Assembly: GCF_018326265.1 (NCBI RefSeq)
Contig: NZ_AP023360.1
Location: 3,463,501 to 3,527,500 of the forward strand
Length of the DNA stretch: 64,000 nt
Origin: Catellatospora sp. IY07-71
GTDB lineage: Bacteria > Actinomycetota > Actinomycetes > Mycobacteriales > Micromonosporaceae
Reading direction: 5' to 3'
Shown here: positions 2,365 to 64,000 of the stretch, piece after piece
Layout of the letters: each line of letters starts with the position of its first letter
Position numbering within the stretch: position 1 is the first letter of the stretch
Notes under the pieces: model-generated
Databases searched by the model: none
Told to the model about the DNA's origin: nothing
What the model saw: the letters and a program-made list of their open reading frames with translations, nothing else
Position numbers and translations under genes: made by a program

Positions 2365-2391
2365 ACACCGGCGCAGGCGGTGACCATCCGA

Positions 2392-5880: not shown

Positions 5881-5930
5881 GGCTGCCGCGTTGAGGACGC
5901 GACCAGACAGGTTCAGATGGTCCACTCAGA

Positions 5931-5958: not shown

Positions 5959-6045
5959 TTCTGTTGGTGCTGGTTGTGAGAGCCGACAGGGCTGTCGTCA
6001 GGTGGTGCTCCGGCGTCTGCGGCGGCTCGGACGAAGGCGCGGCTG

Positions 6046-6603: not shown

Positions 6604-6623
6604 TCTAGTGAGCACTCGTGTTG

Positions 6624-42564: not shown

Positions 42565-43098
42565 ATGGTTTATCCGATCGAAGGCCGTGCACGTATTGTC
42601 TCCCGCCGCACTCTGCTCGCCGGGGCATGCGCGGCGGTGCCGGGGCTCATCCTCGCCACCGGCACCAGCGCGCAGGCCGGCGAGTCCGCGGCCGGCCGGG
42701 CCGTGGGCGGCAGGTTCCTTTCCGGGCACTACCGGTGGCCCATCGCCGCACCGGACGCCCCGGCCGGGGCGGGCGTGTCCGGTGTGCTGTTCCTGCTGAC
42801 CGAGGGCGGGCAGCCGCTGGCCGGACGGCGTGTGCGCTTCAGCATCAGCGCGTTCCACACCGTCGACCGCAGCGTGTGGTTCGCCGCCGGGGCGCAGCGC
42901 AAGGCGGTCAGCCGCCTCGGCTACCTCGACCTGGACACCGACGGCTCGGGCATCGTGGCGCTGGATCCGTGGCTGCGCCGGGGCGCGGTGCCGACCGCGG
43001 CTACCGGGGCCCAGCCGGTCCTGCGGGCGCAGCTGGTCGGCGCCGAGACGATCCTCGCCTCGGCGCGCGTCAGCGTGATCAGAGGGGAGGCCCGATGA
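42565..43098 (+). CDS. Tat-exported hypothetical protein, first gene of the lytic operon
   Basis: The protein has 177 residues with an excellent TAAGGAGGT ribosome site. The signal is twin-arginine-like: VSRRTLLAGACAAVPGL, ending near TSAQAGE. The mature ~140 residues are beta-rich (SGVLFLLTEGGQPLAGRRVR) and may be an Ig-like or wall-binding fold. It is not recognised as a family. It overlaps the GH25 lysin start by four bases (ATGA), so the two are translated together and probably act together at the wall. Confidence 0.75.
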   Translation: MVYPIEGRARIVSRRTLLAGACAAVPGLILATGTSAQAGESAAGRAVGGRFLSGHYRWPIAAPDAPAGAGVSGVLFLLTEGGQPLAGRRVRFSISAFHTVDRSVWFAAGAQRKAVSRLGYLDLDTDGSGIVALDPWLRRGAVPTAATGAQPVLRAQLVGAETILASARVSVIRGEAR

Positions 43099-45707: not shown

Positions 45708-45723
45708 CCCCTGAGGAGCACGC

Positions 45724-48395: not shown

Positions 48396-51176
48396 CTAAC
48401 CGGCGAGGCGGTCCAGCCGCTGCCGGGCCCGGTCGGCCGCGCTGTCGCCGAGAGCGTCGTAGATCTGCGCCGCGCGCCGCCAGGCCTCGGCGGCGGCGGC
48501 GTGCTCACCCAGCGCGGCGCGCACGTCGCCGAGCCGGGTCAGCGTCTCCGCCTCGTGGTAGCGGTCGGCGGACTCCCGGAACAGCCGGATGGACTGCTCG
48601 TAGAGGCCCGCGGCCCGGCCGTGGTCGCCCAGCCCCGCATGGGCCAGGCCCAGGCTGTCCAGGGTGGCCGCCATGCCGTTGCGGTCGTCGATCTCCTGCT
48701 GGATGGCCAGGGCCTCGTGGCAGATCTCGATGGCGCGGCGGTGCTCGCCGAGGGTGGCGTGGATGTAGCCGATCGCGTTCAAGGTCCGGCCCTCACCGGC
48801 GGGCGTGCCCGCCCGCCGGTGCAGCCGCAGCGCCCGCTCCCCGTAGGCGAGCGCCTCCTGCGGGCGGCCCCGCTCGTAGGCCAGCTCGGTGCGGCTGTGC
48901 AGCGTCTGGGCCTGGCCGGTGAGGTCGCCGAGCTGCTCGTACAGCCGCAGCGCGGCGGCGAGCCGGTCCATGGCGTCGTCGTGCCCGCCGAGCCGGATCT
49001 CGGCGCGGGCCAGCATCCGGTTGGCCATGGCCTGGCCGCTGAGGTCACCGGCCCGCTCCGCGGCGGCCACCGCGATCCGCTGGGCGGCCGCCTGGTCCTG
49101 CCACAGCCCGCGGGGCGCCAGGAACGCCGTCACCGCCCAGGCGATCTGCCAGGCGTACCGCTCGAAGCCGGTGTCGGCCGCCTGGCGGACGACGCGGATC
49201 AGCACCTCACGCTCGGCGGTGTACCAGTCCAGCGCCTCGTCATGATCGGCCACCGGTGCGGCGAAGCTGACCGGCAGCGGCGGCACCGGCTCGACCGGCG
49301 CCCACTGCGGCTGCAGCAGCCGCGCCGCCGGGAAAGCGGTGTGCAGGTAGTGGTCGTACAGGCGATGCAGGGCCTCCCGCCGCACGTCCGCGGGCTCGGC
49401 GGAGCCGACCAGCTCCCGGGCGTAGGTCCGGAGCAGGTCGTGCTGCGTGTACCGCCCCGGCCGGTGCTCGGTCACCAGGTGCCGCCGGGTCAGCTCGTAC
49501 AGCGCCGATCTGGTCGCGGACTGGTCCCAGCCGGTCAGCGCGGCGGCGACCGCGGCGGTGACGTCAGGCCCCGGATGCAGGCCGAGCAGGCGGAACAGGC
49601 ACGCCGCCGGCTCGCTCAGGTCGTGGTAGGACCACGAGAACACCCGCCGCACGTCGCCGTCGGCGAGCGCGTCCAGCCGCGCCTCGCCCGCGGCCAGCTC
49701 CGCGGCGAACACGGCGAGCGGGAACGTGGGCTTGGCCGCGATGCGGGCAGCGACGATGGACAGGGCGAGCGGCAGGTGCCCGGCCGCCTCGACGACGGCC
49801 GCGACCGCCGCCGGCTCCCGCTCGATCCGCTCGGCGCCCAGCCAGGCGCCGAGCATGCGCCGCGACTCCTCGCCGGTCAGCACGTTCAGCGTGAGCGGCC
49901 GGGCCTGCTCGGCCGCGATCAGGCCGTGGAGCTGGTCCCGGCTGGTGATCACCACCAGGCAGTGCCCCGTGCCGGGCAGCAGCGGGCGCACCTGCTGGGC
50001 GTCGCGGGCGTTGTCCAGCACGATCACCATCCGCCGGGTCGCCAGCATGCTGCGGTAGAGCCCGGTGCGGGCGTCGGCGGTGGCCGGGATGCGCCCGGCC
50101 GGCACGCCGAGCGCCTCCAGGAGGCTGTGCAGGGCCTCGGCCGGATCCACGGCCTCGGCGTCGTCGTAGCCGCGCAGGTTCAGGTAGAGCTGGCCGTCCG
50201 GGAAACGATCGGCCACCCGGTGCGCCCACCGCAGCGCCAGCGCCGTCTTGCCGATGCCCGCCATGCCGCTGATCGTCGATATCGTCACCGCGCCCGGCCC
50301 GCCCGCACCGGCGGCCAGGGCAGCGTCGAGCTGAGCCAGCTCGCTCTCGCGCCCGACGAAGCCGGGCACGGCGCGCGGCAGCTGCGTGGGACGGCGCCCG
50401 AGCGGCCGCTCACCGTCGGCGCCGGCACGGTGGTGCAGGATGTCGTCGTGCAGCCGGAGCAGCTCGGGCCCCGGATCCAGCCCCGTGTGCTCGGCCAGCG
50501 CCCGCCGGACTTGCTGGAAGGCGTCCAGCGCGCCGGACACGTCGCCGATGCGATACAGCGCGGTCATCAGCTGGGCCCACGCCCGCTGCCGCAGCGGATG
50601 CTGGTCGACGACGGCACGCAGCCGCTCGATCACGTCGGCGGCGGTCGTCCCCGCCGCCAGCCGCGCCGCGGCATGGTCCTCCTCGGCGAGCAGCCGCCGC
50701 TCCTCCAGCGCCCGGACGCGGCTCTCCAGCGGCGAGTTCAGCGGCAGGTCGGACAGCGGCGCACCACGCCACATGCCGACCGCGACGGCCAGCTCCGCCG
50801 CGGCCTGCTGCGGCTGCCCGGCGGAAAGGGCCGTCCGGCCCCGCGCCACCACCGCCTCGAACCGGTCCAGGTCCCGCTCGCCCGGCTCGACCCGCAGCAG
50901 GTAGCCGCCGGACGCGGCGGTCAGCCGGTCCCGGCCGCGCGCCGTCGGCTGCAGCGCCTGACGCAGCCCGCTCACGTACGTGCGCAGGTTCACCGCCGCG
51001 GAGGCGGGCGGCCGGTCCGGCCACAGGACGGTCAGCAGCTCGCCGGCGCCCACCGCCTCGTTCGGCCGCAGCAGCAGGCTGGCCAGCAACAACCGGTGCT
51101 TGACGGACGGCAGCGGGATCTCGGCGCCGAGCTGCGACACCCGCAGCGGGCCGAGCAGCTGGAACTCGATGTCCAC
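48396..51176 (-). CDS. AfsR-family regulator (winged helix, BTAD, NB-ARC, TPR)
   Basis: The protein has 926 residues from the GTG at 51176; a GTG at 51203 gives 935 and cannot be excluded. Domains are an OmpR-like winged helix (EFQLLGPLRVSQLGAEI), BTAD (~95-245), an NB-ARC ATPase with P-loop ISGMAGIGKTALAL and Walker B-like MVIVLDNARDAQQ, then helical and TPR repeats from ~600 to the end (RLHRRAGTPAGEGRTLNAIG). This is the AfsR design: an ATP-dependent activator often tied to secondary metabolism. It is divergent from the CAAX protease gene with a 157-bp promoter gap. Confidence 0.9.
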   Translation of the reverse strand: MDIEFQLLGPLRVSQLGAEIPLPSVKHRLLLASLLLRPNEAVGAGELLTVLWPDRPPASAAVNLRTYVSGLRQALQPTARGRDRLTAASGGYLLRVEPGERDLDRFEAVVARGRTALSAGQPQQAAAELAVAVGMWRGAPLSDLPLNSPLESRVRALEERRLLAEEDHAAARLAAGTTAADVIERLRAVVDQHPLRQRAWAQLMTALYRIGDVSGALDAFQQVRRALAEHTGLDPGPELLRLHDDILHHRAGADGERPLGRRPTQLPRAVPGFVGRESELAQLDAALAAGAGGPGAVTISTISGMAGIGKTALALRWAHRVADRFPDGQLYLNLRGYDDAEAVDPAEALHSLLEALGVPAGRIPATADARTGLYRSMLATRRMVIVLDNARDAQQVRPLLPGTGHCLVVITSRDQLHGLIAAEQARPLTLNVLTGEESRRMLGAWLGAERIEREPAAVAAVVEAAGHLPLALSIVAARIAAKPTFPLAVFAAELAAGEARLDALADGDVRRVFSWSYHDLSEPAACLFRLLGLHPGPDVTAAVAAALTGWDQSATRSALYELTRRHLVTEHRPGRYTQHDLLRTYARELVGSAEPADVRREALHRLYDHYLHTAFPAARLLQPQWAPVEPVPPLPVSFAAPVADHDEALDWYTAEREVLIRVVRQAADTGFERYAWQIAWAVTAFLAPRGLWQDQAAAQRIAVAAAERAGDLSGQAMANRMLARAEIRLGGHDDAMDRLAAALRLYEQLGDLTGQAQTLHSRTELAYERGRPQEALAYGERALRLHRRAGTPAGEGRTLNAIGYIHATLGEHRRAIEICHEALAIQQEIDDRNGMAATLDSLGLAHAGLGDHGRAAGLYEQSIRLFRESADRYHEAETLTRLGDVRAALGEHAAAAEAWRRAAQIYDALGDSAADRARQRLDRLAG

Positions 51177-51333: not shown

Positions 51334-52155
51334 ATGCTTACCACCACCGATGCGCCCGCCGCCGCGCGCGTCAACACCCGTCGATGGGGTGGTGCCGCAC
51401 TGGTCGCCGTCGCGGCGTTGCTGGTCGGCCTGCCCGTCTCCCGCGATGCGCCGCTGCTGTGGGCGGCCCTGGCCGGCGTGCTCGCGCTCATCAGCGCCGC
51501 CGCGCTCGCCCTGCGCGATCCGGCCGTGCTGCGCGCCGTCCTGCTCGTCGACCTCGTCGTGGCGTGCGCCGCCGCCGGCACCTGGCTGCTGCCCGCCGGC
51601 CTGCTCACCTGGCCGACGACCGTGCTGGTCGCGATGGCCGCGGGCGTCGGCATCGCCCGGCTGCGCCCTGAGCTGCGGCCGGTGGCCCCGTGGCTGCGCC
51701 GCGGCCGATGGACCCCGGAACTGCCCTGGCTCGTGCTGGCGGTCGTGGTCCTCAGCGCCGCGGCCCTGACCGCCTGGGCGTGGCTGGCCGATCCGCCCGT
51801 GCCGCCGTTCGTGGCCAACCTGGGCGACCGGCCGGTCGCCGTCATCGCCGCGGGCGTCATCGGCTTCTCCGTCGTCAACGCCGTCGCCGAGGAGTTCCTC
51901 TACCGCGGCGTGCTGCAGACCGAGCTGACCACGCTCGCCGGGGCCGCCACGGCGATCATCGTGCAGGCGGTGGCGTTCGGCGTCGCGCACTGGGGCGGCT
52001 TCCCGTCCGGCTGGATGGGCGTGGGCATGTCCGCGGCCTACGGGCTGCTGCTCGGCGTCATCCGGCACCGCACCGGCGGCATCCTCGCCGTCTTCGCCGT
52101 CCACATCCTCGCCGACACGACGATCGGCCTGCTCGGAATGTATCTGCTGCGATGA
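51334..52155 (+). CDS. CPBP-family intramembrane protease (CAAX protease)
   Basis: The protein has 273 residues from the ATG at 51334 (an ATG three codons earlier is possible). It has about eight hydrophobic segments. The CPBP motifs are intact: NAVAEEFLYRGVLQTEL (motif 1, EExxxR), AHWGGFPSGW (motif 2 His) and AVHILADTT (motif 3 His). These glutamic-type intramembrane proteases process or protect against peptides in some bacteriocin systems. The stop overlaps the thioesterase start (ATGA), implying joint expression. Confidence 0.9.
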   Translation: MLTTTDAPAAARVNTRRWGGAALVAVAALLVGLPVSRDAPLLWAALAGVLALISAAALALRDPAVLRAVLLVDLVVACAAAGTWLLPAGLLTWPTTVLVAMAAGVGIARLRPELRPVAPWLRRGRWTPELPWLVLAVVVLSAAALTAWAWLADPPVPPFVANLGDRPVAVIAAGVIGFSVVNAVAEEFLYRGVLQTELTTLAGAATAIIVQAVAFGVAHWGGFPSGWMGVGMSAAYGLLLGVIRHRTGGILAVFAVHILADTTIGLLGMYLLR

Positions 52156-52883
52156 ACAGTCTCCGCCGTCACCGGACCACCGCCCGGCCCCGCCTGCGGA
52201 TCGTGTGCTTCCCGCACGTGGGCGGCGCGGCGAGCTTCTTCCGTACGTGGCCGGCCGGACTGCCCGGCGACGTCGACGTGCTGGCCGCGCAGTATCCGGG
52301 GCACGAGGATCGCATCGCCGAGCCGTTCGCCGACGACCTGAGCGGGCTCGCCGCCGAGCTGGCCGATGCCCTCATCCCGCTGCTGGACGTGCCGACGCTG
52401 CTGTTCGGGCACAGCATGGGCGCGACCGTGGCCTACGAGGCCGCCCGGCGCATCGAGGCACTCGTGCCCCGCGCCCGGATCGCGCTGGCCGTGTCCGCGT
52501 CGGCCGCCCCGGACGCGCCCCGGCAGGGCCCGGCCGACGACGGCGACGACGCGCTGGTGGCGCACCTGCGCGAGCTGGGCGGCGTGCCTCCCGAGGTGCT
52601 GGCCGACCCCGAGCTGCGGGAGCTGGTGCTGCCCGTGGTCCGCCACGACTACGCGATGCTGCACCGCCACCGCGACGACCCGCAGCCCCGGCTGCGCAGC
52701 CCGATCATGGCGTTCTGCGGGCAGGACGATGCGCTGGCCGGGCCGTCGCAGATGCGGCGCTGGGACACGCGGACGGCCGGGCGGTTCACCCTCAAGATCT
52801 TCACCGGTGGGCACTTCTACCTCGTGCCTCACCAGAACGAGCTGCTCAAGGAGCTCACCGCCTGGCCACCGGCCGCGGCATAG
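52152..52883 (+). CDS. Type II thioesterase
   Basis: This 243-residue alpha/beta hydrolase is of the editing thioesterase family found in NRPS/PKS clusters. It has the N-terminal RLRIVCFPHVGGAASFFRTW, the nucleophile elbow LFGHSMGATVAYE (Ser), the Asp in FCGQDDALAG and the His in FTGGHFYLVPH. It should remove misprimed acyl groups from carrier proteins. This ties the region to the PKS at 61706, although it lies 9 kb away on the other side of the diaminopropionate operon. Confidence 0.92.
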   Translation: MNSLRRHRTTARPRLRIVCFPHVGGAASFFRTWPAGLPGDVDVLAAQYPGHEDRIAEPFADDLSGLAAELADALIPLLDVPTLLFGHSMGATVAYEAARRIEALVPRARIALAVSASAAPDAPRQGPADDGDDALVAHLRELGGVPPEVLADPELRELVLPVVRHDYAMLHRHRDDPQPRLRSPIMAFCGQDDALAGPSQMRRWDTRTAGRFTLKIFTGGHFYLVPHQNELLKELTAWPPAAA

Positions 52884-52938
52884 CGGCTCTGCACCGTCGA
52901 GGGCGCGGTCGCGCTCCCGCCGGGGTCGGCCGGCTCGG

Positions 52939-53520
52939 TCAACGGCGCACGCGACAGCGCAGGTGGAGCACCCGGTTTCCCTGGATCACCACGTCGGGAT
53001 CCTCCAGCAGGTGCTGCGCGTGGACCGACCCGAAGTAGCGCTTGCCGGAACCGAACACGACGGGTACGACGTCCATGCGCACCTCGTCGATCAGGCCCGC
53101 GGCCAGCGCCTGGCCACCGACGTCACCGGCGGCGACCTCGACCAGGCGGTCGCCCGCCAGCTCCTGCGCCTTGGCCACGGCTGCCTTGACGCCGTCGACG
53201 AAGTGGAACGGCGCCTGCGGGTCCCAGTCCTCGGGCGCCGGCCGGTGCGTCACGACGACCACGTGGTCGACCCCGCCCGGAGGCTTCCCGTCCCAGCCGT
53301 CCGTCATGTCGAAGACGTGGCGGCCGGCGACCGTCGCCCCGATCTGGTCCCAGTACGGCCGGGTGTAGTCGAAGGACGTCTGCGACACCTTCAGCACGCC
53401 GCTGTCGTCCAACGGGACGTCGCCGCTGGTCAGCCAGTCGAACAGCGGTCCGGGCCGGTCGTTGTCGTCCGCGATGAAGCCGTCGACCGACACCGAGCCG
53501 TACATGACCACCTTGCCCAC
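52939..53520 (-). CDS. RibD/dihydrofolate-reductase-like reductase
   Basis: This 193-residue single-domain protein of the RibD C-terminal family has MGKVVMYGSVSVDGFIADDN at the start, an NADP-binding loop (VVVVTHRPAP, then VAAGDVGGQALAAGLIDEVR) and the closing PVVFGSGKRYFG. It is probably a small NADPH-dependent reductase; the substrate is unknown. It is the last gene of the reverse-strand run that starts with the SHMT-like gene, 66 bp after the AraC gene. Confidence 0.88.
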   Translation of the reverse strand: MGKVVMYGSVSVDGFIADDNDRPGPLFDWLTSGDVPLDDSGVLKVSQTSFDYTRPYWDQIGATVAGRHVFDMTDGWDGKPPGGVDHVVVVTHRPAPEDWDPQAPFHFVDGVKAAVAKAQELAGDRLVEVAAGDVGGQALAAGLIDEVRMDVVPVVFGSGKRYFGSVHAQHLLEDPDVVIQGNRVLHLRCRVRR

Positions 53521-53586
53521 GGCGTTCTCCTCTGCTTCCGGGTTTCCCCAAGTTAGCGTGCCGTGAGCTGCCGTTCTTGTAAGAAA

Positions 53587-54456
53587 TCAATCGGCCGGCA
53601 GCGGCCAGCCGTCCAGCACGCTGCCGGGATGTTCGCGCAGGAACCGCCGCCGGACTTCGGCGTACCGGGTCGGCGTGAACCCGGTGAACGCCCGCAACTC
53701 GTGGCCGAAGTGGGCCTGGTCGAAGTAGCCCGCGCCACCGGCGACGCCACCCCAGTCGATCGGTTCGGCGAAGTCGATCGCGAGCAAGGTCGCGGCGAAG
53801 CGGTAGGTACGGGCCAGCCGCTTCGGCGTGACGCCGATGAGCTGCTTGAACCGCTGCGCCAGATGAGTGCTGCTGACACCGGCTGCCACGGTCAGGTCGC
53901 CGATCGCCACCGCCCCGCCGGCCGCCGCGATGGCGCTGCTCGTGTGGCGGACCAGCCCCAGGCCGGCCGTCTCGCACAGCCGCCGCATCAGCTCCTCCTC
54001 GAACAGCGTCAGCATCTGCCGCGGTCCGTCCGCCGTGGCCAGCCGGTCCCGCAGCTCGGCAACGGCGGGCCGGCCCCAGACCTGCTCCAGCGTCACCGGC
54101 CGGTCACACAGCTCGACCGCGGGCATCGGCAGGAACGGCGCCAGCCCCCACGGCTTGACGTGTACGCCGACGGACCGGGTGGGGAGTGGGTAGCCGAACT
54201 CGAAGGCGCGGGTGGGCGTGGTGATCACGCAGCCGTCGGCGTACTCGGCCGTCTCGACGTCGGTGCCCGCGCGGATGCGGAACGGTGCCCCGAGGTTGAC
54301 GATGAGCAACGCCCCCGGCATCGGCGGCAGCGTCAGCCGGGCGTACGGCGGCGCACCGTCCAGGTAGTAGAGGTCGTCGATCAGCCCGTCCAGCGGCGGT
54401 CGCGGCACTCTGGACACGTACTCCACACCCACAGCATCCCCGACGCCGGCCGGCAC
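53587..54456 (-). CDS. AraC-family transcriptional regulator
   Basis: The protein has 289 residues (a GTG nine codons in is an alternative start). The N-terminal ~150 residues are an AraC ligand-type domain (PGALLIVNLGAPFRIRAGTD). The C-terminal HTH pair reads VAAGVSSTHLAQRFKQLIGV and GYFDQAHFGHELRAFTGFTP. It sits at the end of the P450/Sbn operon, 51 bp after the P450 stop, and may control it or the reductase that follows. Confidence 0.88.
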   Translation of the reverse strand: MPAGVGDAVGVEYVSRVPRPPLDGLIDDLYYLDGAPPYARLTLPPMPGALLIVNLGAPFRIRAGTDVETAEYADGCVITTPTRAFEFGYPLPTRSVGVHVKPWGLAPFLPMPAVELCDRPVTLEQVWGRPAVAELRDRLATADGPRQMLTLFEEELMRRLCETAGLGLVRHTSSAIAAAGGAVAIGDLTVAAGVSSTHLAQRFKQLIGVTPKRLARTYRFAATLLAIDFAEPIDWGGVAGGAGYFDQAHFGHELRAFTGFTPTRYAEVRRRFLREHPGSVLDGWPLPAD

Positions 54457-54507
54457 CGCGCGCCGGGACGGTCCGGCCGCGCCGCCGCCGGCATCGAGCC
54501 GGGTGGT

Positions 54508-55710
54508 TCAGGCGCCGCCGGCCAGGACCACGGGCAGGCGGCTGTAGCCGGCCAGCACGTTGGAGTACAGCCGCTGCGGTTCGCCGTCCGGCCCGATCCC
54601 GCCGACGTGCCGGCGCAGCGCGTCGAGCAGCGCCGCGATCTCGACCCGGCCGAGGTGCGCGCCCAGGCAGAAGTGCGGCCCGAATCCGAAGGTCAGGTGC
54701 CGGTTCGGCGTACGCCCCAGATCGAAGACGTCCGGGTCGTCGAACTGGCGCTCGTCGCGGTTGGCCGACGAGATCCAGACCGTCACGATGTCCCCGGCCC
54801 GGAAACGGTGCCCGGCCCAGTCCAGCTCGGTCAGCACGGTCCGGCCGAAGTGCATGGCGGGGCTCGTCCAGCGCAGCACCTCCTCGGCCGCGGCCGCCAC
54901 GGTGACCTCCCCGTCCTTGAGCCGCCGCCACTGCCCCGGATGCTCGATGAACGCCGCCAGCGCGCCGATCATCGACAGGCGGCTGGTCTCGTCGCCGCCG
55001 ATGATGAGGCTGTAGCAGTTCAGCACGATGTCGTCCTCGTCCAGCAGCCGGCCGTCGATGCGGCTCTGGGCGAGCGCGGTGATCACGTCGTCCTGCGGCC
55101 GTGCCCGCCGCTCGTCGACGAGGTCGGCGAAGTAGAGCAGGATCTCGTTGCGGGCGGCCACCTCGTCCAGCGCCTGCGCGTCGGGCCTTTCCGAGCTCAG
55201 CGCCGACTTGGTCAGCCGCAGCAGCGTCTCGTGGTCGGCGGCGGGCACGCCCAGCAGGTCGCAGATGGTCGTGATCGGGATGCGCTCGGCCACGTCGGCG
55301 GCGAAGTCGCAGCGGCCGCGCTCGGCCGCGGCGGCGACCAGCCGGTCGGTGTTGGCCCGGACCTTGTCGCCCACCTGGTCCAGCGCCCGCGGCGACAGCG
55401 CCTTGAGCATCACGTAGCGCAGGTCGCGGTGCCGGGCGCCGTCGGTGACCGCCAGCATCCGGCCCGCCGCCGAGTCGCCGCCCGCGAGCAGGGTGGCCAG
55501 CACGTTGCCGCGCTCGGAGGTGAAGGCGCGGTTGTCCTTGAACACCGCCTGCACGTCGGCGTAGCGGGTCAGCACCCAGAAACCGGGCCGGTCGCCCTCG
55601 GCGGGCTGCCAGTGCACCGGGTCGTCGGCCCGCAGCCTGCGCCAGATGGCGTGCGGGTCGTGTCGGCTGTAGGTGTGCGGATCGGCCAGGTCGACCGCGC
55701 CGACCGTCAT
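54508..55710 (-). CDS. Cytochrome P450
   Basis: The 400-residue soluble bacterial P450 has an I-helix with the oxygen-binding GGDETSRLS, an ExxR in EEVLRWTSP, and the heme loop FGFGPHFCLGAHLGRVE with Cys ligand. It needs ferredoxin partners, which are not encoded here. Overlap with SbnB (4 bp) and position in the same transcript suggest that it oxidises an intermediate or the final product of the cluster. Confidence 0.93.
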   Translation of the reverse strand: MTVGAVDLADPHTYSRHDPHAIWRRLRADDPVHWQPAEGDRPGFWVLTRYADVQAVFKDNRAFTSERGNVLATLLAGGDSAAGRMLAVTDGARHRDLRYVMLKALSPRALDQVGDKVRANTDRLVAAAAERGRCDFAADVAERIPITTICDLLGVPAADHETLLRLTKSALSSERPDAQALDEVAARNEILLYFADLVDERRARPQDDVITALAQSRIDGRLLDEDDIVLNCYSLIIGGDETSRLSMIGALAAFIEHPGQWRRLKDGEVTVAAAAEEVLRWTSPAMHFGRTVLTELDWAGHRFRAGDIVTVWISSANRDERQFDDPDVFDLGRTPNRHLTFGFGPHFCLGAHLGRVEIAALLDALRRHVGGIGPDGEPQRLYSNVLAGYSRLPVVLAGGA

Positions 55711-56717
55711 CGCGCCGGATGGAAGTCGGGGAACGACTGACCGGCACCGGCCGCGATCGCGCGGTCGTAGACCCACCTGCCCACGGCGAGGTCCAGGATG
55801 CCCAGCCCGAACGGCGAGAAGACCGCGGCACGCCCGGGGTCCCGCCGCACCCGGCCGGTGAGCAGGTCGCCCAGCGTCCCGGTGAGGAAGTCCCGGTGGC
55901 CCTCCTGCTGCTCGGTCAGGTGCAGCGAGGTCCGCTCCCGCACGGCGTGCTCGACGTCGTCGGTGAAGTTGTCGGCGGCGAGCACCACCTGCGGCGCGAG
56001 GTCGCGCAGGGACAGGTGCAGCACGACCGGGTGGTGGGCGAGCAGCGCCGGGTCGTGCAGGTGCGGCACGCCGGCGACGGTGGCCAGGACGATCAGGTCG
56101 CAGTCGGCGAACAGCTTCTCCGCGGAGTCCGACACCGCGACGTCGCCGGCGCCGCGCGCGGCCAGCTGCCCGGCGAACCGCTCGGCGCTGTCGGGGACCA
56201 GGTCGAACACCCGGTAGCCGCCGACCGACCAGTGCAGCTCGTGGAAGAACGCGCGCACGTGGGAGGCGATCAGCCCGGCGCCGACGAAGCCGATGCGGCG
56301 GGCCGTGCGCGAGCCGACCAGCTCCTGCGCGGCCAGCACCGCCGAGGCGGCCGTGCGGGCCGCGGAGATCAGCGAGGATTCCAGGCAGGCGAAGGCGTAG
56401 CCGTTCGTCGCGTCGTTGAGCAGCAGCACGGCCGACGCCCGGTTCAGCCCGTGGCCCGTGTTCGCCGGGAAGCTGGAGATCCATTTGAGGCCGGCCAGGT
56501 CGGCATCCGCGCCGAGGTAGGCGGGCAGCGCGATGACCCGGTCGGCGGGACGGTGCGGGAAGCGCAGGAACGCGCTGTGCGGCAGCGAGTCCTGACCCGC
56601 GTCGTGGATCAGGTACGCGGCCCGGACCGCCTCCATGCAGTCCGGCCGCGCGCCGTCGATCTGCCGGGCCACCTCCGGACCGGTCAGGACGGTGAACGGG
56701 GGTGCGGTCGGCGACAT
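55707..56717 (-). CDS. sbnB: SbnB-like 2,3-diaminopropionate biosynthesis dehydrogenase
   Basis: The 336-residue protein of the ornithine cyclodeaminase fold starts at the ATG at 56717 (GAAGGAG upstream). An NAD-binding glycine motif is visible in IGFVGAGLIASHVRAFF. SbnB-like features include GLKWISSFPANTGHGLNRAS and FSPFGLGILDLAVGRWVY. SbnB oxidatively hydrolyses N-(2-amino-2-carboxyethyl)-L-glutamate to L-2,3-diaminopropionate and 2-oxoglutarate. It directly follows sbnA. The assignment is strengthened by this pairing. Confidence 0.88.
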   Translation of the reverse strand: MSPTAPPFTVLTGPEVARQIDGARPDCMEAVRAAYLIHDAGQDSLPHSAFLRFPHRPADRVIALPAYLGADADLAGLKWISSFPANTGHGLNRASAVLLLNDATNGYAFACLESSLISAARTAASAVLAAQELVGSRTARRIGFVGAGLIASHVRAFFHELHWSVGGYRVFDLVPDSAERFAGQLAARGAGDVAVSDSAEKLFADCDLIVLATVAGVPHLHDPALLAHHPVVLHLSLRDLAPQVVLAADNFTDDVEHAVRERTSLHLTEQQEGHRDFLTGTLGDLLTGRVRRDPGRAAVFSPFGLGILDLAVGRWVYDRAIAAGAGQSFPDFHPAR

Positions 56718-56730
56718 GCGTACTCCTTCG

Positions 56731-57729
56731 TCAGGCGGATGCCAGCTGGGCGACACCGGCGGGCTCGGCGTCGCCGCCGAGGAACCGCCGCACCCAGTCG
56801 GGGTTGTAGACCGTGTCGGCGTAGCCGGTGCCCCGGTCGACGGCCAGGAACGCGACCGTCGGCCGGTGCGGGTGCGGATGGTCGCGGAAGTAGCTGCGGA
56901 TCGCGGCGTAGACGCTGCCGGTGGATCCGCCCGCGAAGACCCCGTAGCGGCGCAGCAGCTCCTGGCAGCCGCGTGCCGCGTCCAGCTCGGGAACGATGAC
57001 GACGTCGTCGATGAGCGCGTGGCGCAGCAGCGGTGCGCCGATGGCCGAACCGATGCCCGGGATCCGGCGCCGCGCGGCGGGCCCGCCGAAGGTCACCGAG
57101 CCCTCCGCGTCGACGGCCACGACCCGGGTCCGCGGCGAGCGCTCCTTGACCCGCAGGGACAGCCCGGCGATGGTGGCGGCGGTGCCCACCCCGACGAACA
57201 GGTAGTCGATCCGGTGCAGCGCCTGCCGCAGCTCGCCGCCGGTGAGCCGGTAGTGGCCCTCGACCGCGTCGACGTTGCCGTACTGGTTGGTCCAGTAGAC
57301 GTCCGGCAGCTCGGCGCGCAGCCTGCGGACCCGGGCCAGCCTGGCCTCCAGGTAGCCCCCGGCGCCGTCGGGCGCGTCCACCTTCTCCACCCGGTCGCAC
57401 AGCGTGCGCAGCAGCGTCTCGGTCGACGCGTTCACGTTCGGGTCGAGCACCGGGATGAACGTGACCCCCAGCGACCGGCAGATGGACGCGAGCGCGACCG
57501 CGAAGTTCCCCGAGGACGACTCGACGACCGTGGTCCCCGCGTCGATCTCGCCGCGCTCAAGCGCCTGCCGGAGGATCCACAGCGCGGCCCGGTCCTTGGC
57601 GCTGCCGTGCGAGTTCGTGTACTCGAGCTTGAGGTGCAGATCGAGGTCGTCGTCCGGCAGCGGCACGGTCGGCGTCGGCTGGTAGGACCGGCGGATCAGG
57701 TCGAAGCGCCGTGCCAGTGTGCGGTTCAC
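56731..57729 (-). CDS. sbnA: SbnA-like 2,3-diaminopropionate biosynthesis PLP enzyme
   Basis: The 332-residue protein has the cysteine-synthase fold. Its PLP lysine is in LEYTNSHGSAKDRAALWILR; the family form is NPxGSxKDR. The phosphate-binding loop is VVESSSGNFAVALAS. SbnA condenses O-phospho-L-serine with L-glutamate, giving the substrate of SbnB. Its GTG start overlaps the stop of the SHMT-like gene (GTGA at 57726-57729). Confidence 0.9.
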   Translation of the reverse strand: MNRTLARRFDLIRRSYQPTPTVPLPDDDLDLHLKLEYTNSHGSAKDRAALWILRQALERGEIDAGTTVVESSSGNFAVALASICRSLGVTFIPVLDPNVNASTETLLRTLCDRVEKVDAPDGAGGYLEARLARVRRLRAELPDVYWTNQYGNVDAVEGHYRLTGGELRQALHRIDYLFVGVGTAATIAGLSLRVKERSPRTRVVAVDAEGSVTFGGPAARRRIPGIGSAIGAPLLRHALIDDVVIVPELDAARGCQELLRRYGVFAGGSTGSVYAAIRSYFRDHPHPHRPTVAFLAVDRGTGYADTVYNPDWVRRFLGGDAEPAGVAQLASA

Positions 57730-58868
57730 CAGAGCTCGCCCGGCCGCGGGGTGACCAGGGAGCGCTGCGGCACGGGGAACTCCGAGGCCAGCCTGCGGAC
57801 CGCGGCGCGGGCGGACTGGCGGTGGAAGCCGGTCGGCCGCGCGTCGTCGATCGTGCGCCGGATCTCGGTGAGCAGGGCCGCGAGCTGCCGCATCTCCCCG
57901 CCGCGGCATCCGCGCAGGGTGACCGCCTGCGTGCCGAGCAGCAGCGCCGTGTCGTACGCGTCGACGAGCAGCCCGACCGAGGCGAGCGCCTGCCGGAGCG
58001 CGGCGGCCCGGGGCGCGTCGCCGTCGAGGCACAGCTCCACCACGGTGGTGTCGGTGCCGCCGGTGGCGACGGTCCAGCCCAGCATCTGCAGCTCCGCGGC
58101 CAGCTCCCTGGCGTTGGCGACCGCCTCGGCGGTGGCGCTGCGGTAGTCGTCGCGGGCGGCCAGATCGAGCAGCCGGGCCGCGGCCGCCGCGGCGGGCTGC
58201 TCGGCGGGCAGGTCGACGACGTCCGCGGCCAGCACGAGGGTGGCCCCGCCCAGCCCGGTGACCCATACCTCGGCGTGCGGCAGCGGGCTGGGGTGCAGGC
58301 CCGCGGCCACCAGCCGGGTCACCGCCGTGGTGTCGACGATCAGCCGTGCTCCCAGCTCGTCGGCGTGCCGGCGCAGCCGGGTGAAGTCGGCCGCGCGCGG
58401 GGCAGGTCGCAGCGTCGCCACGAGTGTCCGCGGCCCGCCTTCGGCCGTTGCCGTCACCTCGTGCGGGGGCGCCGGGTCGGTGAGCGGCGTCAGCGGCGCG
58501 CCGCCGGCCAGCTCCGCGACGGCGGCGGCGGGCGTGCACGACAGCAGGCGCGCGTGCGGAGCGCCGAACAGCGTCCGGGCCCGCTCCAGCGCCAGCTGCT
58601 CCATCCGGTCGCCCGCGGCGCCGCCGGCCGACAGGGCGAGGGCGAACGCGGCCGGGACAGTCGGATCGGTGAGCGTCGCCGTGGCCGTCAGGTGCAGTCG
58701 CGCCTCCTGCTGCGCGTGCGCCTCGTGCAGCACGGCCGCCAGTGCCGGATCCTCCTCGGCCAGGACGTCCACGGCGTCGGCCAGATACCGGCTGAGCGGC
58801 GAGCGCGGGCCGGGCTGCGCGGCGGCCACCGGGCCGTGAGCGGCCCGTGGCGGGCTCAGAACCTCCAT
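57726..58868 (-). CDS. Serine hydroxymethyltransferase-like protein without the PLP lysine
   Basis: The protein has 380 residues from the ATG at 58868 (GGGGGGAT upstream). The fold matches GlyA: YLADAVDVLAEEDPALAAVL, RARTLFGAPHARLLSC, and RLIVDTTAVTRLVAAGLHPS. In real SHMTs the last stretch is followed by the THK motif carrying the PLP lysine. Here the equivalent is AEVWVTGLGGATLVL, with no lysine, and GPRGG is also lost. It is shorter than GlyA. It therefore cannot form the normal internal aldimine and may be a scaffold, a binding protein or an enzyme with changed chemistry. It is the first gene of the diaminopropionate operon and is coupled to sbnA. Confidence 0.75.
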   Translation of the reverse strand: MEVLSPPRAAHGPVAAAQPGPRSPLSRYLADAVDVLAEEDPALAAVLHEAHAQQEARLHLTATATLTDPTVPAAFALALSAGGAAGDRMEQLALERARTLFGAPHARLLSCTPAAAVAELAGGAPLTPLTDPAPPHEVTATAEGGPRTLVATLRPAPRAADFTRLRRHADELGARLIVDTTAVTRLVAAGLHPSPLPHAEVWVTGLGGATLVLAADVVDLPAEQPAAAAAARLLDLAARDDYRSATAEAVANARELAAELQMLGWTVATGGTDTTVVELCLDGDAPRAAALRQALASVGLLVDAYDTALLLGTQAVTLRGCRGGEMRQLAALLTEIRRTIDDARPTGFHRQSARAAVRRLASEFPVPQRSLVTPRPGELW

Positions 58869-58976
58869 GTATCCCCCCAGCAGTCGACCTCCCTCGAGAC
58901 GGTAGACAGCGGTCGTGGAGTCATCGTGGAATCGCCGGGGCCGGGCATGGAATTCCGATGGTCCGGCCCGGCGACG

Positions 58977-59010
58977 CCGCGCGCCCTCCCGCGACGGGGA
59001 GGGCGCGCGG
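58977..59010 (-). terminator. Terminator between SARP gene and diaminopropionate operon
   Basis: A perfect 14-bp stem (CCGCGCGCCCTCCC) with a 6-nt loop lies just past the SARP stop in its direction of transcription. Confidence 0.65.
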
Positions 59011-59014
59011 CCGG

Positions 59015-61018
59015 TCACCTGACCCGGCTGCGGGCCTCGACCGGCAGCGACCGGTGCGAGGCGTTCAGCGGTGAGGCGCGCACGTTCAGGTGCTCGCGGC
59101 CGAAGCCGGTGGCCAGCGTCCTGGCGTAGCCGCGCAGCAGCGGCGGCATGTGGAACATGTCGGCCCGCTGCTGCACCAGCAGGTTCGCGTCCAGCAGGTA
59201 CTCCAGCGACTGCTCGGCCTCGGCGGCGGTGACGTGCCCGGCACGTGCCGCGGCCACGGTGTCGAACTCGCTCGACAGCACCGCCAGCCGGACGAACATG
59301 CGCTGCTCGGGGGCGGGCAGCCGGTCGAAGGACGCGGCGAACGCGGTGGTCAGCCGCTGGTCGTGGGTGGACAGCTCGGCCAGCCGCCGGTCCTCGAACT
59401 GCATGCGGTTGACCACCCGGCTGATCGGCCAGTGCGGCCGTTTGCGCAGGCGCACCGCGCAGATCCGGATGGCCAGCGGCAGCCCGTCGCACAGTTCCAC
59501 CAGCCGCCGGGCGGCGTCCGGCTCGGCGGCGACCCGGTCGGCGCCGAGCACCCGTTCCAGCAGCGCGAGGCCCTCGCCGACGTCGAACCCCGACAGCCAC
59601 ACCCGCAGCGAGCTGTCCAGACCCGTCAGGTCGTGGCGGCTGGTCATCAGCACCCGGCACATCGGGCTGCCGGGCAGGATGGGGCGGACCTGCGGTGCGG
59701 ACAGCACGTTGTCCAGCACCAGCAGCAGCCGGCGGCCGGCCACGTGGGAACGCCACAGGGCGGCCCGGTCCTCCAGGCCGGGCGGGATCTGCTCGACGCC
59801 GACGCCGACGGCGCCGAGCAGGTTCTCCAGTGCCTCGGCAGGGGTCTTGGGCTCCCGTCCGGTGGTGTGCCCGCGCAGATCCAGGTAGATCTGCCCGTCG
59901 CTGTAGCAGCCGGCGACCAGGTGCGCGGCGTGCAGCGCCAGGCTGGTCTTGCCGACGCCGGCCATGCCGCTGACGACGGCGATCGGCCGCGCCGACCCGG
60001 AGGCGCCCGGGTCGAAGGCCTCGCCGGCCAGCGTCATGATCTCGCGGTGGCGCCCCACGAAGTCGACCAGGTCGCGGGGTAGATCGCGGCGCGGGCGGGG
60101 GAACAGTGGTGGCGCCGTGCGCGCCGGTGCGGTGACGGGCGCGACGTGGGTGGCGAGCACCGGCGGCTCGGCGGCGGGCGGGGCGGCCCGGGCCCGCGCG
60201 GGTTCGGCGATCTCCACCGACGGCGGCGGGCTGGGCGCGTCCAGCCCGGGGTCCGCGCGCAGCACGTCGGTGTGCAGGGCGCGCAGCTCCGGGCCGGGAT
60301 CGACGCCGAGCTCGTCGCGCAGCGCCTCCTGGGTGGCGTGGAACAGTTTCAGCGCCTCGGCCTGGCGCCCGCTGCGGTACAGCGCGAGCATGAGCAGGCC
60401 GACCAGGCTCTCCCGCAGCGGGTTGTCCACGACGAGGCCGGACAGCTCCGCGGTGGCCTCCAGGTGCCGCCCGAGGGCGAGGTCGACGCCGATCCGCTCC
60501 TCCAGCACCCCGAGCCTGGTCTCCAGCAGCCGGGTGCGGTAGGCGGCGAGGTAGGGACCGGGCAGCGCGCTGAGCGGCTCGCCGTGCCAGCGCGACAGCG
60601 CGGTGGCGAACAGGTCGCGGGCGCGCGCCGGGTCGTCGGCCTGGCGTGCCTCGCGGGCCCGGTCGACCAGCGCCGTCATCTCGGTGAGATCGATCGCGTC
60701 GGGATCCACCCGCAGCTGGTAGCCGTCGCGCAGCCGCAGGATGCGGGTGCCCGCCGCCGGGTCCTCGGGGTTGATGGGGCCGGCGTTGAGCGCTCGCCGC
60801 AGCCGGTAGATGTACGGTGGAATGATCTTGGCGCCGCTGGGCGGGGCGTCCTCGCCCCATGCCGCGCGCAGCAGCTCGTCGGCGGTGAGCCGGCGGTTCT
60901 CGGCCAGCACGAGGATCGCCAGTATCGCCTGCTGCCGGATGTGGCCGATGTCGACTTCGTGCCCGTTGCGCCGGACCTGGAATGGGCCGAGGACGGCGTA
61001 GGTGATCGCCCCGTGCAT
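59015..61018 (-). CDS. SARP-family regulator with NB-ARC domain
   Basis: The protein has 667 residues. The N-terminal winged helix starts ITYAVLGPFQVRRNG, and BTAD runs from ~105 to 250 (FHATQEALRDELGVDPGPEL). A Pro/Ala linker follows, then an NB-ARC ATPase with P-loop VVSGMAGVGKTSLALH and RLLLVLDNVLSAP. It lacks the long TPR tail of AfsR. Position between the diaminopropionate operon and the PKS marks it as the probable pathway-specific activator. The 687-bp divergent region to the PKS holds a TGTACA-5-TGTACA element. Confidence 0.9.
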   Translation of the reverse strand: MHGAITYAVLGPFQVRRNGHEVDIGHIRQQAILAILVLAENRRLTADELLRAAWGEDAPPSGAKIIPPYIYRLRRALNAGPINPEDPAAGTRILRLRDGYQLRVDPDAIDLTEMTALVDRAREARQADDPARARDLFATALSRWHGEPLSALPGPYLAAYRTRLLETRLGVLEERIGVDLALGRHLEATAELSGLVVDNPLRESLVGLLMLALYRSGRQAEALKLFHATQEALRDELGVDPGPELRALHTDVLRADPGLDAPSPPPSVEIAEPARARAAPPAAEPPVLATHVAPVTAPARTAPPLFPRPRRDLPRDLVDFVGRHREIMTLAGEAFDPGASGSARPIAVVSGMAGVGKTSLALHAAHLVAGCYSDGQIYLDLRGHTTGREPKTPAEALENLLGAVGVGVEQIPPGLEDRAALWRSHVAGRRLLLVLDNVLSAPQVRPILPGSPMCRVLMTSRHDLTGLDSSLRVWLSGFDVGEGLALLERVLGADRVAAEPDAARRLVELCDGLPLAIRICAVRLRKRPHWPISRVVNRMQFEDRRLAELSTHDQRLTTAFAASFDRLPAPEQRMFVRLAVLSSEFDTVAAARAGHVTAAEAEQSLEYLLDANLLVQQRADMFHMPPLLRGYARTLATGFGREHLNVRASPLNASHRSLPVEARSRVR

Positions 61019-61705
61019 GGCTAGAACAGACCTCCGCGATGTGGACCGGACCTGCGTCCGTCGTGGTGTTCGTCCTGGCGGCGCGTCATCGCCGGTCCGC
61101 GTCTCGGCAGGGCCCGGCCCGGCGCGGGGCGGATCCCGCGGAGGCGTCGCGGCCGAGCGGGCGGCGTGCCCGTGCCGGGAGACCGGGGCCGCGGGCGGCC
61201 GAGGGATTCACGTGGCATTCCATGGTGCCTCACTCTCGGGTAATGGCGCTCCAGCGCGGAACAGTATGCCAAGCCGCAAAACAACGGCACGTCGGTTCTG
61301 TACTGGCCGTGTACAAAATCTGTACATCCGATTCCCGCCCGGCGGAATGCTAGCGGATCACGCCGGTTCCGTGGGGGCACATTAATTCATAGATGTCGAT
61401 CGAGCCATGAATTTCAATGACGATTGGACGGCGCGCCGTCGTGGGCCGGTCGCCACGGCTCCGCCGCCGCCACCGCCGTTCCATGTCGATGCCACGGTGA
61501 TTCCAGGCCGGTTGGCTAGCGTCGCTTCCGGTGCCGGGCCGCTACGACCCGGCGTGCGCCCGACGCTCGGGCAGGCATGCACGACCAGGCATGTGACGGC
61601 TCACATGAGTCCAATGTGCACACACCGCGCGAGCGGAAGTCGTTTGTTCGGACCGGGGAGATCGCGACCATCGGTCGACCCGCACAGCAGGAATGGGGGT
61701 CTGTC
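61019..61705. promoter_or_regulatory. Divergent regulatory region SARP/PKS
   Basis: This 687-bp stretch without a convincing gene becomes markedly A/T-richer from 61220 to 61430, as expected for promoters. TGTACA-AAATC-TGTACA at 61310-61326 is two self-complementary hexamers on the same face of the helix (11 bp apart), a plausible regulator site. A 100-residue frame from 61407 overlaps the PKS start and has poor composition; I do not call it a gene. Confidence 0.55.
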
Positions 61706-64000
61706 GTGACGGAGACCATGAATGCGCCGGCGACGGCGTCCGCCGCACCGGCGGGCAGCGGGACGCTCGGCGAATCGCCGATCGCGATCGTCGGCATGGG
61801 CGCACTGTTCCCCAAGGCGGGGGACGTGCGGGAGTACTGGGGCAATATCGTCGACGGCGTCGACTGCATCACCGACGTGCCCGCGACGCACTGGCGCCTC
61901 GACGACTATTACGACCCCGATCCGACGGTGCCGGACAAGACCTATTCGCGGCGCGGCGGATTCATTCCGGCCACCGCATTCCACCCCCTCGAATACGGCA
62001 TTCCGCCGGCCACTCTCGAAGTGACCGGCGTGCTGCAGCTGCTCAGCCTCGTGGTGGCCGAGCAGACCCTGCGCGACGCGAACTGCTTCGACGGCGGGTG
62101 GTACCGCCCGGACCGCACCGGCGTGGTGCTCGGGGTCACCGGTCCCACCTCCATCGTGCAGCCGCTGGTCAGCCGCCTGCAGACGCCCGTGCTCAAAGAG
62201 GTCGTGCGCAGCTGCGGCCTCACCGACCGCGACGCCGACGAGATCGCCGCCAAGTTCACCAAGGCGTTCGCGCCCTGGCAGGAGAACTCGTTCCCCGGCA
62301 TGCTCGGCAACGTCGTCGCCGGCCGCGTGGCCAACCGCTTCGACCTCGGCGGGATCAACTGCACCGTGGACGCCGCCTGCGCCAGCTCGCTGGCCGCACT
62401 GCGGATGGCCGTCGACGAGCTGGTCAGCGGCCGCGCCGACCTCATGCTCACCGGCGGCGTCGACGCCGAGAACACCATCCTGATGTACCTGTGCTTCAGC
62501 AAGACGCCCGCGTTCAGCCGCACCGACCGGATCCGGCCGTTCGACGAGGACAGCGATGGCACCATGATCGGCGAAGGCCTCGGCATGCTGGCGCTCAAGC
62601 GCCTCGCCGACGCCGAACGCGACGGCGACCGGATCTACGCTGTGATCCGCGGCCTCGGCTCCTCCAGCGACGGACGGTTCAAGAGCATCTACGCGCCCCG
62701 GCGGGAAGGCCAGGTCACCGCGCTGCGCCGGGCCTACGCCGACGCCGGTCTCACCCCGGCCGACATCGGGCTCATCGAGTGCCACGGCACCGGCACGCCC
62801 GTCGGCGACCTCACCGAGCTGTCCGCGCTGCGCGACGTCTACACCGAGGCCGGCGCCGCCGCCGGCACCGTCGCGGTGGGCAGCGTCAAATCGCAGATCG
62901 GGCACACCAAGGGCGCCGCAGGCGTGGCGGGCGTCATCAAGTCCGCCCTGGCCCTGCACCAGAAGGTGCTGCCGCCGACCATCAACGTCACCCGGCCCCG
63001 CGCCGCGGCCGGCTTCGACGACTCGCCGTTCTACGTCAACAGCCGGACCCGGCCCTGGATCACCCAGCCCGGCGTCGACCGGCGCCGTGCCGCGGTGTCC
63101 TCGTTCGGGTTCGGCGGCACCAACTTCCACTGCGTCCTCGAGGAGCACCCGGCAGCCGACGCCGCGGCCCTGCACCGCACCGCGCAGGTGCGGCTCTGGC
63201 ACGCACCCACCGTCCCGCAGCTGCTCGACGCGCTGCGCGACGACCCGTACGGCACCGACCCGCAGGACGCCGTGCCCGCCGCGCACGCCCGCATCGCCCT
63301 GGTCAGCCGTGACGACGCCGAACGCGCCGCGCTGCGCGAGACCGCCCGGCAACGGCTCGCCGCCGAGCCCGACCTCGACCGGCTCGATCTGAACAGCGGA
63401 ATCCACTTCCGCCGCGAGGGCGGCGTCCCCGGCCGCGTCGCGGCGCTGTTCGCCGGGCAGGGCAGCCAGTACGTGGGCATGGGCGCCACCGCCGCGCTCG
63501 CGCTGCCGCCCGTCCGCGCGGCGTACGACGCCGCCGCGGCCGCCTCCGACGACGGCGCCCTCGGCCGCGTGGTGTTCCCGCCGCCGGCGTTCGACCCGCA
63601 GGTCTCGCAGGAGCAGGAGGCCGCGCTGCGCGCCACCGACCGCGCCCAGCCCGCCATCGGCGCGCTGTCCGCCGGGCAGTACCGCTACCTGCACGAGCTG
63701 GGCTTCCGCCCCGACGGGGCGCTCGGCCACAGCTTCGGCGAGCTCACCGCGCTGTGGGCGGCCGGCAGCGTCACCGACGCCGACTTCCACCGGCTGGCCC
63801 AGGCCCGCGGCCGCGCCATGGCGCAGCGGCCCGCCGAGCTGACCGACCCGGGCGCGATGGCGGCGCTGGCCACCGACCGCGAACGCGTCGAGAAGCTGCT
63901 CGTCGAACACCCCGACGTGCTGATCTGCAACCTCAACGCGCCCGACCAGACGGTGGTCGGCGGCGGCACGGCCGCCGTCGACGAGGTGCTGGCCGCCTGC
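61706..64000 (+). CDS. PfaA-like iterative type I polyketide synthase, 3' end outside window
   Basis: GTG at 61706 opens a frame of 765 codons to the window edge. The ketosynthase (~20-480) is of the PUFA-synthase PfaA type: FPKAGDVREYWGNIVDGVDC, DDYYDPDP, and TYSRRGGFIP. The catalytic Cys is in TVDAACASSLAAL at residue 225, and the His residues are in IECHGTGTPVGD and SQIGHTKGAAG. An acyltransferase domain starts at ~590 (ALFAGQGSQYVGMG), with nucleophile Ser 676 in LGHSFGELTALW. Carrier proteins and further domains should follow beyond 64000. It is divergent from the SARP gene and probably activated by it. Confidence 0.9.
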   Translation, partial: MTETMNAPATASAAPAGSGTLGESPIAIVGMGALFPKAGDVREYWGNIVDGVDCITDVPATHWRLDDYYDPDPTVPDKTYSRRGGFIPATAFHPLEYGIPPATLEVTGVLQLLSLVVAEQTLRDANCFDGGWYRPDRTGVVLGVTGPTSIVQPLVSRLQTPVLKEVVRSCGLTDRDADEIAAKFTKAFAPWQENSFPGMLGNVVAGRVANRFDLGGINCTVDAACASSLAALRMAVDELVSGRADLMLTGGVDAENTILMYLCFSKTPAFSRTDRIRPFDEDSDGTMIGEGLGMLALKRLADAERDGDRIYAVIRGLGSSSDGRFKSIYAPRREGQVTALRRAYADAGLTPADIGLIECHGTGTPVGDLTELSALRDVYTEAGAAAGTVAVGSVKSQIGHTKGAAGVAGVIKSALALHQKVLPPTINVTRPRAAAGFDDSPFYVNSRTRPWITQPGVDRRRAAVSSFGFGGTNFHCVLEEHPAADAAALHRTAQVRLWHAPTVPQLLDALRDDPYGTDPQDAVPAAHARIALVSRDDAERAALRETARQRLAAEPDLDRLDLNSGIHFRREGGVPGRVAALFAGQGSQYVGMGATAALALPPVRAAYDAAAAASDDGALGRVVFPPPAFDPQVSQEQEAALRATDRAQPAIGALSAGQYRYLHELGFRPDGALGHSFGELTALWAAGSVTDADFHRLAQARGRAMAQRPAELTDPGAMAALATDRERVEKLLVEHPDVLICNLNAPDQTVVGGGTAAVDEVLAAC

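Follow-up and report, generated by a model that had tools for sequence, protein, structure and literature searches.

We analysed a window of 64,000 nucleotides from Catellatospora sp. IY07-71 (Micromonosporaceae; positions 3463501-3527500 of one 8,595,826-base contig) together with its right flank, into which the window numbering was carried on (coordinates >64000, hereafter extended coordinates). The right part of the window and the flank hold genes for a polyunsaturated fatty acid (PUFA)-type synthase, here called Pfa-type, and for three nonribosomal peptide synthetases (NRPSs), next to two genes of 2,3-diaminopropionate (Dap) biosynthesis, and we read them as a probable hybrid cluster for a lipopeptide. 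Gene borders are our own calls, and domain content was assigned with Pfam and NCBIfam profiles for 27 genes of this region (Table 1).

A preliminary description of the window had reported a type II thioesterase, a cytochrome P450, SbnB, SbnA, a SARP regulator and a PfaA-like ketosynthase (KS)-acyltransferase (AT) protein, all of which the profiles recovered in place. It had also expected the cluster to run on past the right edge, and the edge does fall inside it: the genes from PfaA to the ABC exporter form a single plus-strand operon of ~31 kb, in which no gap exceeds 59 bases and five gene pairs overlap by 4 bases. As supporting finds it had named a ketoreductase (KR)/dehydratase (DH), an amide-forming enzyme and tandem acyl carrier protein (ACP) domains; the first lies at 65632-67782 and NRPS condensation (C) domains follow directly downstream, while in place of tandem ACPs there is a single one.

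Table 1. Genes of the cluster and its left border in window numbering, extended past 64000 (A, adenylation; T, carrier; E, epimerisation; TE, thioesterase; PLP, pyridoxal phosphate; SHMT, serine hydroxymethyltransferase)
Feature	Position	Strand	Evidence or remark
SARP-family regulator (BTAD, NB-ARC, TPR)	48396..51176	-	Pfam; 97% identity in C. bangladeshensis (G051)
CAAX (Rce1-like) protease	51334..52155	+	Pfam
Type II thioesterase, GHSMG motif	52152..52883	+	Pfam and motif
RibD_C gene	52939-53520		absent from gene list of the preliminary description
AraC gene	53587-54426		absent from gene list of the preliminary description
Cytochrome P450, haem-Cys motif FGFGPHFCLG; predicted tailoring enzyme	54508..55710	-	Pfam and motif
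SbnB, Dap biosynthesis	55707..56717	-	TIGR03944, 395.7 bits (cut-off 326.9)
SbnA, Dap biosynthesis, PLP enzyme	56731..57729	-	TIGR03945, 374.5 bits (cut-off 349.95)
SHMT-like, without the THKTLRG motif that holds the PLP lysine; 4-base overlap with SbnA	57726..58829	-	Pfam and motif
SARP-family regulator (BTAD, NB-ARC)	59015..61018	-	Pfam
PfaA-like KS-AT-ACP	61577..64000, on to 65572 (extended)	+	TIGR02813, 1130.9 bits for whole gene (cut-off 1010.1)
KR-DH	65632-67782	+	TIGR02813 profile positions 1857-2581, 362.1 bits
Hotdog-type protein	67791-68615	+	profile scan
FabA didomain	68612-70420	+	two FabA stretches
PfaD	70417-71976	+	TIGR02814, 616.6 bits (cut-off 449.25)
MbtH	72009-72227	+	
NRPS1, C-A-T-E	72227-76672	+	
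NRPS2, C-A-T-C-A-T	76675-82779	+	
NRPS3, C-A-T-E-C-A-T-TE	82776-91133	+	
ABC exporter	91130-92877	+	

The cluster recurs in C. bangladeshensis NBRC 107357 (G051) on a 76,540-base contig (C53, NZ_BONF01000053.1), where the genes from the SARP at 48396 onward stand in the same order until the contig ends, after the first half of NRPS2, and aligned protein pieces are 90-99.6% identical. Between the two species the ratio of nonsynonymous to synonymous substitution (dN/dS) is 0.14-0.42 in 16 of 17 genes; MbtH, at 0.87 on 71 codons, is too short to judge. Within the genus a strong match to the KR-DH protein was found in G051 alone, that is, in two of 11 genomes including the source. Relatives of one protein from the left flank occur in all 11 genomes, and those of one from the right flank in four. 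Two-component system, DUF2306, TetR and Lnt-like genes stand 3' of the exporter and may lie outside the cluster, and three phosphopantetheinyl transferases (PPTases) above the Pfam cut-off are encoded elsewhere in the genome. To the left of the cluster, at 43095-46848, two adjacent genes have a common repeated domain, with tandem stretches 54-71% identical.

Peptide synthetases and diaminopropionate genes

The NRPSs comprise five modules; the first C domain resembles lipoinitiation domains, and a TE stands at the end. The E domains were read from extra Condensation stretches, a TIGR01720 match in NRPS1 and the carrier motif, which is GGDSI in the two carriers preceding E domains and GGHSL in the other three. 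The C domain of NRPS3 is complete from 82776. An identical stretch of 1,076 bases occurs at 79717-80792, in the second C domain of NRPS2, and at 82782-83857, in the first C domain of NRPS3; this is a recent duplication or gene conversion, and the repeat perhaps caused the G051 contig to end within NRPS2.

When the first C domain was compared with solved chains, the best matches were 7c1k, 7c1h and 7c1p together with CDA peptide synthetase I (5du9, 4jn3), followed by ObiF1, EntF and 1l5a. We take 7c1k to be a rhizomide starter C domain and the CDA domain to be lipoinitiating, of the type that loads a fatty acid on residue 1; judged by resemblance, the Catellatospora domain is closest to acyl-accepting starter C domains.

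The A-domain codes, extracted by alignment to GrsA, are DIWEVTADDK, DVWHISLVDK, DVFSVAIVYK, DLTKVGEVGK and DALFLGLVVK for modules 1 to 5. The module 1 code is, we assume, of a diamino-acid type common to 2,4-diaminobutyrate (Dab) and Dap, which would allow Dab or another basic residue at position 1, with Dap entering at another position, such as those of the unassigned modules 3 and 5, or being made as a product in its own right. In passages of PMC12283262, two codes for Dap share 80% identity with codes for Dab. Against this, no diamino-acid genes other than SbnA and SbnB were recognised in the 27 scanned genes, and only module 1 appears to have the acidic pocket expected for a diamino acid. 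We therefore regard the alternative as doubtful and think it most likely that Dap occupies residue 1.

Of the remaining codes, that of module 2 is one letter from a serine code, DVWHFSLV, given in passages of PMC10888640, and that of module 4 is near the Asp/Asn code DLTKVGHVGK and near DLTKIGEVGK, both in parts of PMC12283262, so that residue 2 is probably Ser and residue 4 probably D-Asn or D-Asp. Piperazate was considered for module 3 and rejected: the code has the same first six letters as piperazate codes in sections of PMC5031334 and PMC3943440, but the last four differ, and neither an ornithine hydroxylase nor a piperazate synthase was found among the 27 genes, to which that search was confined.

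The SbnA gene is the only one in the genome above its family cut-off, and in 14 control genomes family matches never exceeded it. SbnB matches at E <= 1e-95 were found in 30 of 296 sampled genomes of the class (39 matches) and in none of the 14 controls. We read the 38 matches other than that of the cluster in 37 regions, each of at most 20 kb; these held no PfaD, FabA-didomain or hotdog match (E <= 1e-4), and one, from genome G228, held an SHMT-like match. Identity of these SbnB proteins to that of the cluster is 32-54%, except for G228 (60%) and one of the two in G206 (62%), which adjoins a P450 34% identical to ours and a partial SbnA. G228 belongs to a different family of the class; its 7.6-kb contig C183 (positions 1-7613, locus L154) carries in a row ABC exporter genes, an SHMT-like gene (33% identical), SbnA (61%), SbnB, MbtH, a PPTase, a FabG-like short-chain dehydrogenase/reductase and a FabA/FabZ-like DH. 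Thus the SHMT-like protein, SbnA and SbnB recur together, again beside fatty-chain genes, of discrete type there, and the row may be a sister cluster for a lipopeptide whose fatty chain comes from discrete enzymes.

None of the three SHMT-like members examined, those of the source genome, C. bangladeshensis and G228, has the lysine motif, and a working serine hydroxymethyltransferase was rejected on that ground; in three of six comparison loci no frame carried the motif, and these loci were left out. Decay of the gene was likewise rejected, on a dN/dS of 0.25 between the two Catellatospora species that indicates purifying selection. SHMT-like matches occur in 70 of 394 genomes, and we take most to be ordinary GlyA; five genomes of the G228 family contained no second protein of the present kind. 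As a guess, its role could be to hold a substrate or to serve as a scaffold.

The Pfa-type synthase and its relatives

Among the Pfa-type proteins the following catalytic motifs are intact: Cys268, His403 and His443 of the KS (numbered from 61577), GHSFG of the AT, S-Y-N of the KR, HxxxGxxxxP and DxxxQ of the polyketide synthase (PKS)-type DH, and both FabA sites, His95 and His494. The PfaA-like protein has one PP-binding match and one LGIDSI motif, hence no tandem ACP array. Its start codon is uncertain (ATG at 61577 or a later codon such as GTG at 61706), and the first 20 residues counted from 61577 are unmatched in G051. Because the PfaA protein is split over two genes, the KR-DH protein falls below the whole-protein TIGR02813 cut-off. 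Decay of the hotdog gene was rejected on a dN/dS of 0.31 between the two species.

No KS-chain-length factor (CLF) match lies between the KR-DH gene and the FabA didomain, and a PfaB-type terminal AT was found neither in the operon gap nor elsewhere in the genome at E <= 1e-10. With the KS-CLF-AT stretch of a relative (1480 aa) as query, no KS-CLF was found elsewhere in the genome; the best match was the KS of the cluster's own PfaA (39%, 237 bits), and all 15 matches at E <= 1e-10 stop by residue 582, leaving the CLF and AT part uncovered. The 27 genes contain no KS outside PfaA, hence no extra PKS module.

We compared the operon with 58 public pfa loci, 42 of which carry both KR-DH and FabA didomain. 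KS2 and/or CLF matches lie between the two in 36 of these, an AT match alone in four (Actinoallomurus purpureus, Nocardia pseudobrasiliensis, Gordonia soli and a Saprospiraceae metagenome-assembled genome) and no match in two, C. bangladeshensis and Nocardia harenae. We read 13 further loci of the family besides G051 and G114, and the span is present in 10, eight with KS2/CLF and two without (G135, G108). An NRPS, counted as an A or C domain match >150 bits, stands near pfa genes in G114 and, among the 58 public loci, at that of C. bangladeshensis alone, and at none of the 13 family loci; the public flanks reach at most 10 kb and some contigs are short, which limits these counts. Weaker NRPS-like matches (58-119 bits) occur at three family loci (L050, L053, L057). 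The trimmed form occurs elsewhere, since G135 and N. harenae likewise lack KS-CLF, with no NRPS found nearby.

G114, also of Micromonosporaceae, has Pfa proteins 45-65% identical to ours and two NRPS modules ~6 kb from the PfaA-like gene. Unlike the Catellatospora cluster, it has two acyl-CoA dehydrogenases, a separate AMP ligase and a 2484-residue KS-CLF-AT-hotdog-DH-DH protein; in our cluster only the C-terminal third of this protein has counterparts, split between the hotdog gene (residues 1602-1862) and the gene of the FabA didomain (1885-2480). Pfa operons on Streptomyces NZ_CP030864.1 and NZ_CP107856.1 also have PfaA and PfaD, with a FabA didomain 52-53% identical to ours. They differ in keeping KS-CLF-AT, in the ACP, thioesterase and two acyl-CoA dehydrogenases that adjoin, and in having no NRPS A or C match >150 bits in the 37.8 kb examined. 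Two plasmid relatives, like G114, retain the KS-CLF stretch. The Streptomyces plasmid operons L147 and L148 carry an ACP, a thioesterase, two acyl-CoA dehydrogenases and a FAD oxidoreductase.

In a tree of 60 DH didomains, built with long-branch warnings after a length filter had dropped six of 66 candidate loci (L051, L052, L103, L106, L107, L113), the rows lacking KS-CLF fall outside a 35-row clade (support 96/91) in which every testable row retains KS2 or CLF. Loss of KS-CLF from inside the main actinobacterial clade is thus unsupported, subject to the same warnings.

Proposed pathway and alternatives

On balance we think it probable that the locus is a PUFA-synthase/NRPS hybrid cluster for an N-acyl lipopentapeptide, with the starter C domain taking the chain from the ACP. 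The gene content, the operon layout, the intact motifs, the lack of KS-CLF-AT and the starter-C resemblance are what the sequence itself offers. One KS, one AT, one ACP, the KR, the PKS-type DH, the FabA-type DH didomain and the PfaD enoyl reductase would iteratively build a chain from malonyl units, and the C domain of NRPS1 would take it from the ACP and acylate the first amino acid, most likely Dap from SbnA and SbnB, which NRPS1 would then epimerise. Four more modules would add, probably, Ser, residue 3, D-Asn or D-Asp, and residue 5, after which the TE may release the peptide or close a ring, the P450 may tailor it and the ABC transporter may export it.

In marine systems the product is determined by PfaB, a terminal AT, according to PMC12895367, and chain length is said to be set by CLF in parts of PMC3098273. 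We propose that Pfa-type enzymes without KS-CLF and a PfaB-type AT would not release their chain by themselves. The absence of PfaB would fit handover to the C domain; transfer is likely direct from ACP to C, and the chain of medium rather than very long length.

It is also conceivable that two pathways lie side by side: the pfa genes would make a specialised lipid of their own, and the NRPS and Sbn genes a lipopeptide with a tail from primary metabolism (acyl-CoA). Most pfa relatives do stand alone, as the single NRPS-flanked case among the 58 public loci indicates, and two Streptomyces plasmid relatives have ACP and thioesterase genes by their pfa genes. However, the pfa, MbtH, NRPS and exporter genes overlap or nearly touch in one operon, and among the 27 genes there is no stand-alone acyl ligase, AMP-binding domains being found within the NRPSs only, and no release enzyme beyond the type II TE and the NRPS TE. 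We therefore consider two pathways unlikely, and the unbroken run from PfaA through the NRPSs to the exporter likewise opposes the separate PUFA or glycolipid locus that the preliminary description had allowed for. That a KS-CLF acts in trans to give a canonical very long polyunsaturated chain is very improbable: other ketosynthases exist in the genome, among them two adjacent ones at 6120435-6123756, possibly a KS/CLF pair of type II, but genome matches to the relative's KS-CLF-AT leave the CLF and AT part uncovered.

Several points weigh against the hybrid pathway as proposed. EntF, which presumably accepts an aryl acid, is among the matches of the starter C domain, and the C type is therefore no proof of a fatty donor; acyl-CoA, too, can serve as donor for C domains. 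The module 1 code cannot separate Dab from Dap, residues 3 and 5 have no code assignment, and full-text literature searches found neither the exact A-domain codes nor the start of the module 1 code. The separate hotdog protein has none of the dehydratase motifs sought. Compact pfa operons lacking KS-CLF have no NRPS match in the examined flank (L102, L051, L052), so that lack of KS-CLF alone is no mark of NRPS coupling, and G114, with an NRPS nearby, retains KS-CLF. Nor is a single ACP special, since several relatives that keep KS-CLF have one ACP match (e.g. L065, L067, L071, L105). Conservation of the whole cluster comes from two closely related species, two of 11 genus genomes.

More tentatively, we can envisage a PUFA synthase reduced to a tail maker with one KS and one ACP, in which the NRPS starter C domain replaces KS-CLF and PfaB in controlling chain length and release, and which is coupled to a Dap operon that needs the lysine-less SHMT-like partner found with SbnA and SbnB in two actinobacterial families.

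Relation to known systems

The preliminary description had suggested a lipidated or polyene amide of Dap from an uncommon type of cluster. Lipidation of Dap agrees in outline, although a five-residue N-acyl lipopeptide is likelier than a simple amide, and there is no evidence that the chain is a polyene. The type is uncommon, but passages of PMC13291983 already describe PUFA synthase-NRPS(-PKS) hybrids (zeamines, fabclavines, megapolipeptins, chitinimines), and parts of PMC11204786 the joining of a fatty chain to Dap.

Zeamine- and fabclavine-type systems likewise have pfa-type and NRPS genes in one cluster and a specialised lipid bound to peptide; as far as those passages go, they are triple hybrids with PKS modules, whereas the Catellatospora cluster has no modular PKS, KS-CLF or terminal AT. 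The survey in PMC13291983 charted 63 triple hybrids by requiring PKS, NRPS and pfa genes together, according to the same passages, and a PKS-free cluster like ours would therefore probably fall outside its main set. Those passages also mention cyanobacterial examples (clade II) without CLF, others from Ottowia without KS-CLF, and some free of PKS genes from M. simulans, Flavobacterium sp. F-323 and Nostoc sp. PCC 7524. Canonical pfaABCD shares with our cluster the KS-AT-ACP and KR-DH of PfaA, here split over two genes, the FabA-type DH didomain and PfaD; it has in addition PfaB and the KS-CLF of PfaC, and four to six ACPs in the passages of PMC13291983 as against one.

The olenamidonins, enamidonins and autucedines of PMC11204786 are cyclic actinomycete lipopeptides that also combine a fatty acyl chain with Dap; compared by product only, our cluster differs in its five modules, its other predicted residues and its pfa-type tail synthase. 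The enamidonin-type backbone Phe-Dpr-Dpr-Gly (Dpr, diaminopropionate) does not agree with five modules and codes read otherwise, on assignments that we in part presume. Literature searches with the species name gave no paper, and one text search of titles and abstract starts gave none titled for a Catellatospora gene cluster; no title listed by the literature searches dealt with this cluster.

PUFA synthase-NRPS hybrids are thus already known, and it is the variant without KS-CLF and a PfaB-type AT that is unusual. How chain length and chain handover are controlled in PUFA-type synthases is unsettled, and the passages of PMC13291983 describe the mechanisms as incompletely understood. Lacking KS-CLF and terminal AT, and tied in one operon to an NRPS that could accept the chain, this natural version would be a simple system for probing each missing part, and the cluster marks a likely new lipopeptide of the genus Catellatospora.

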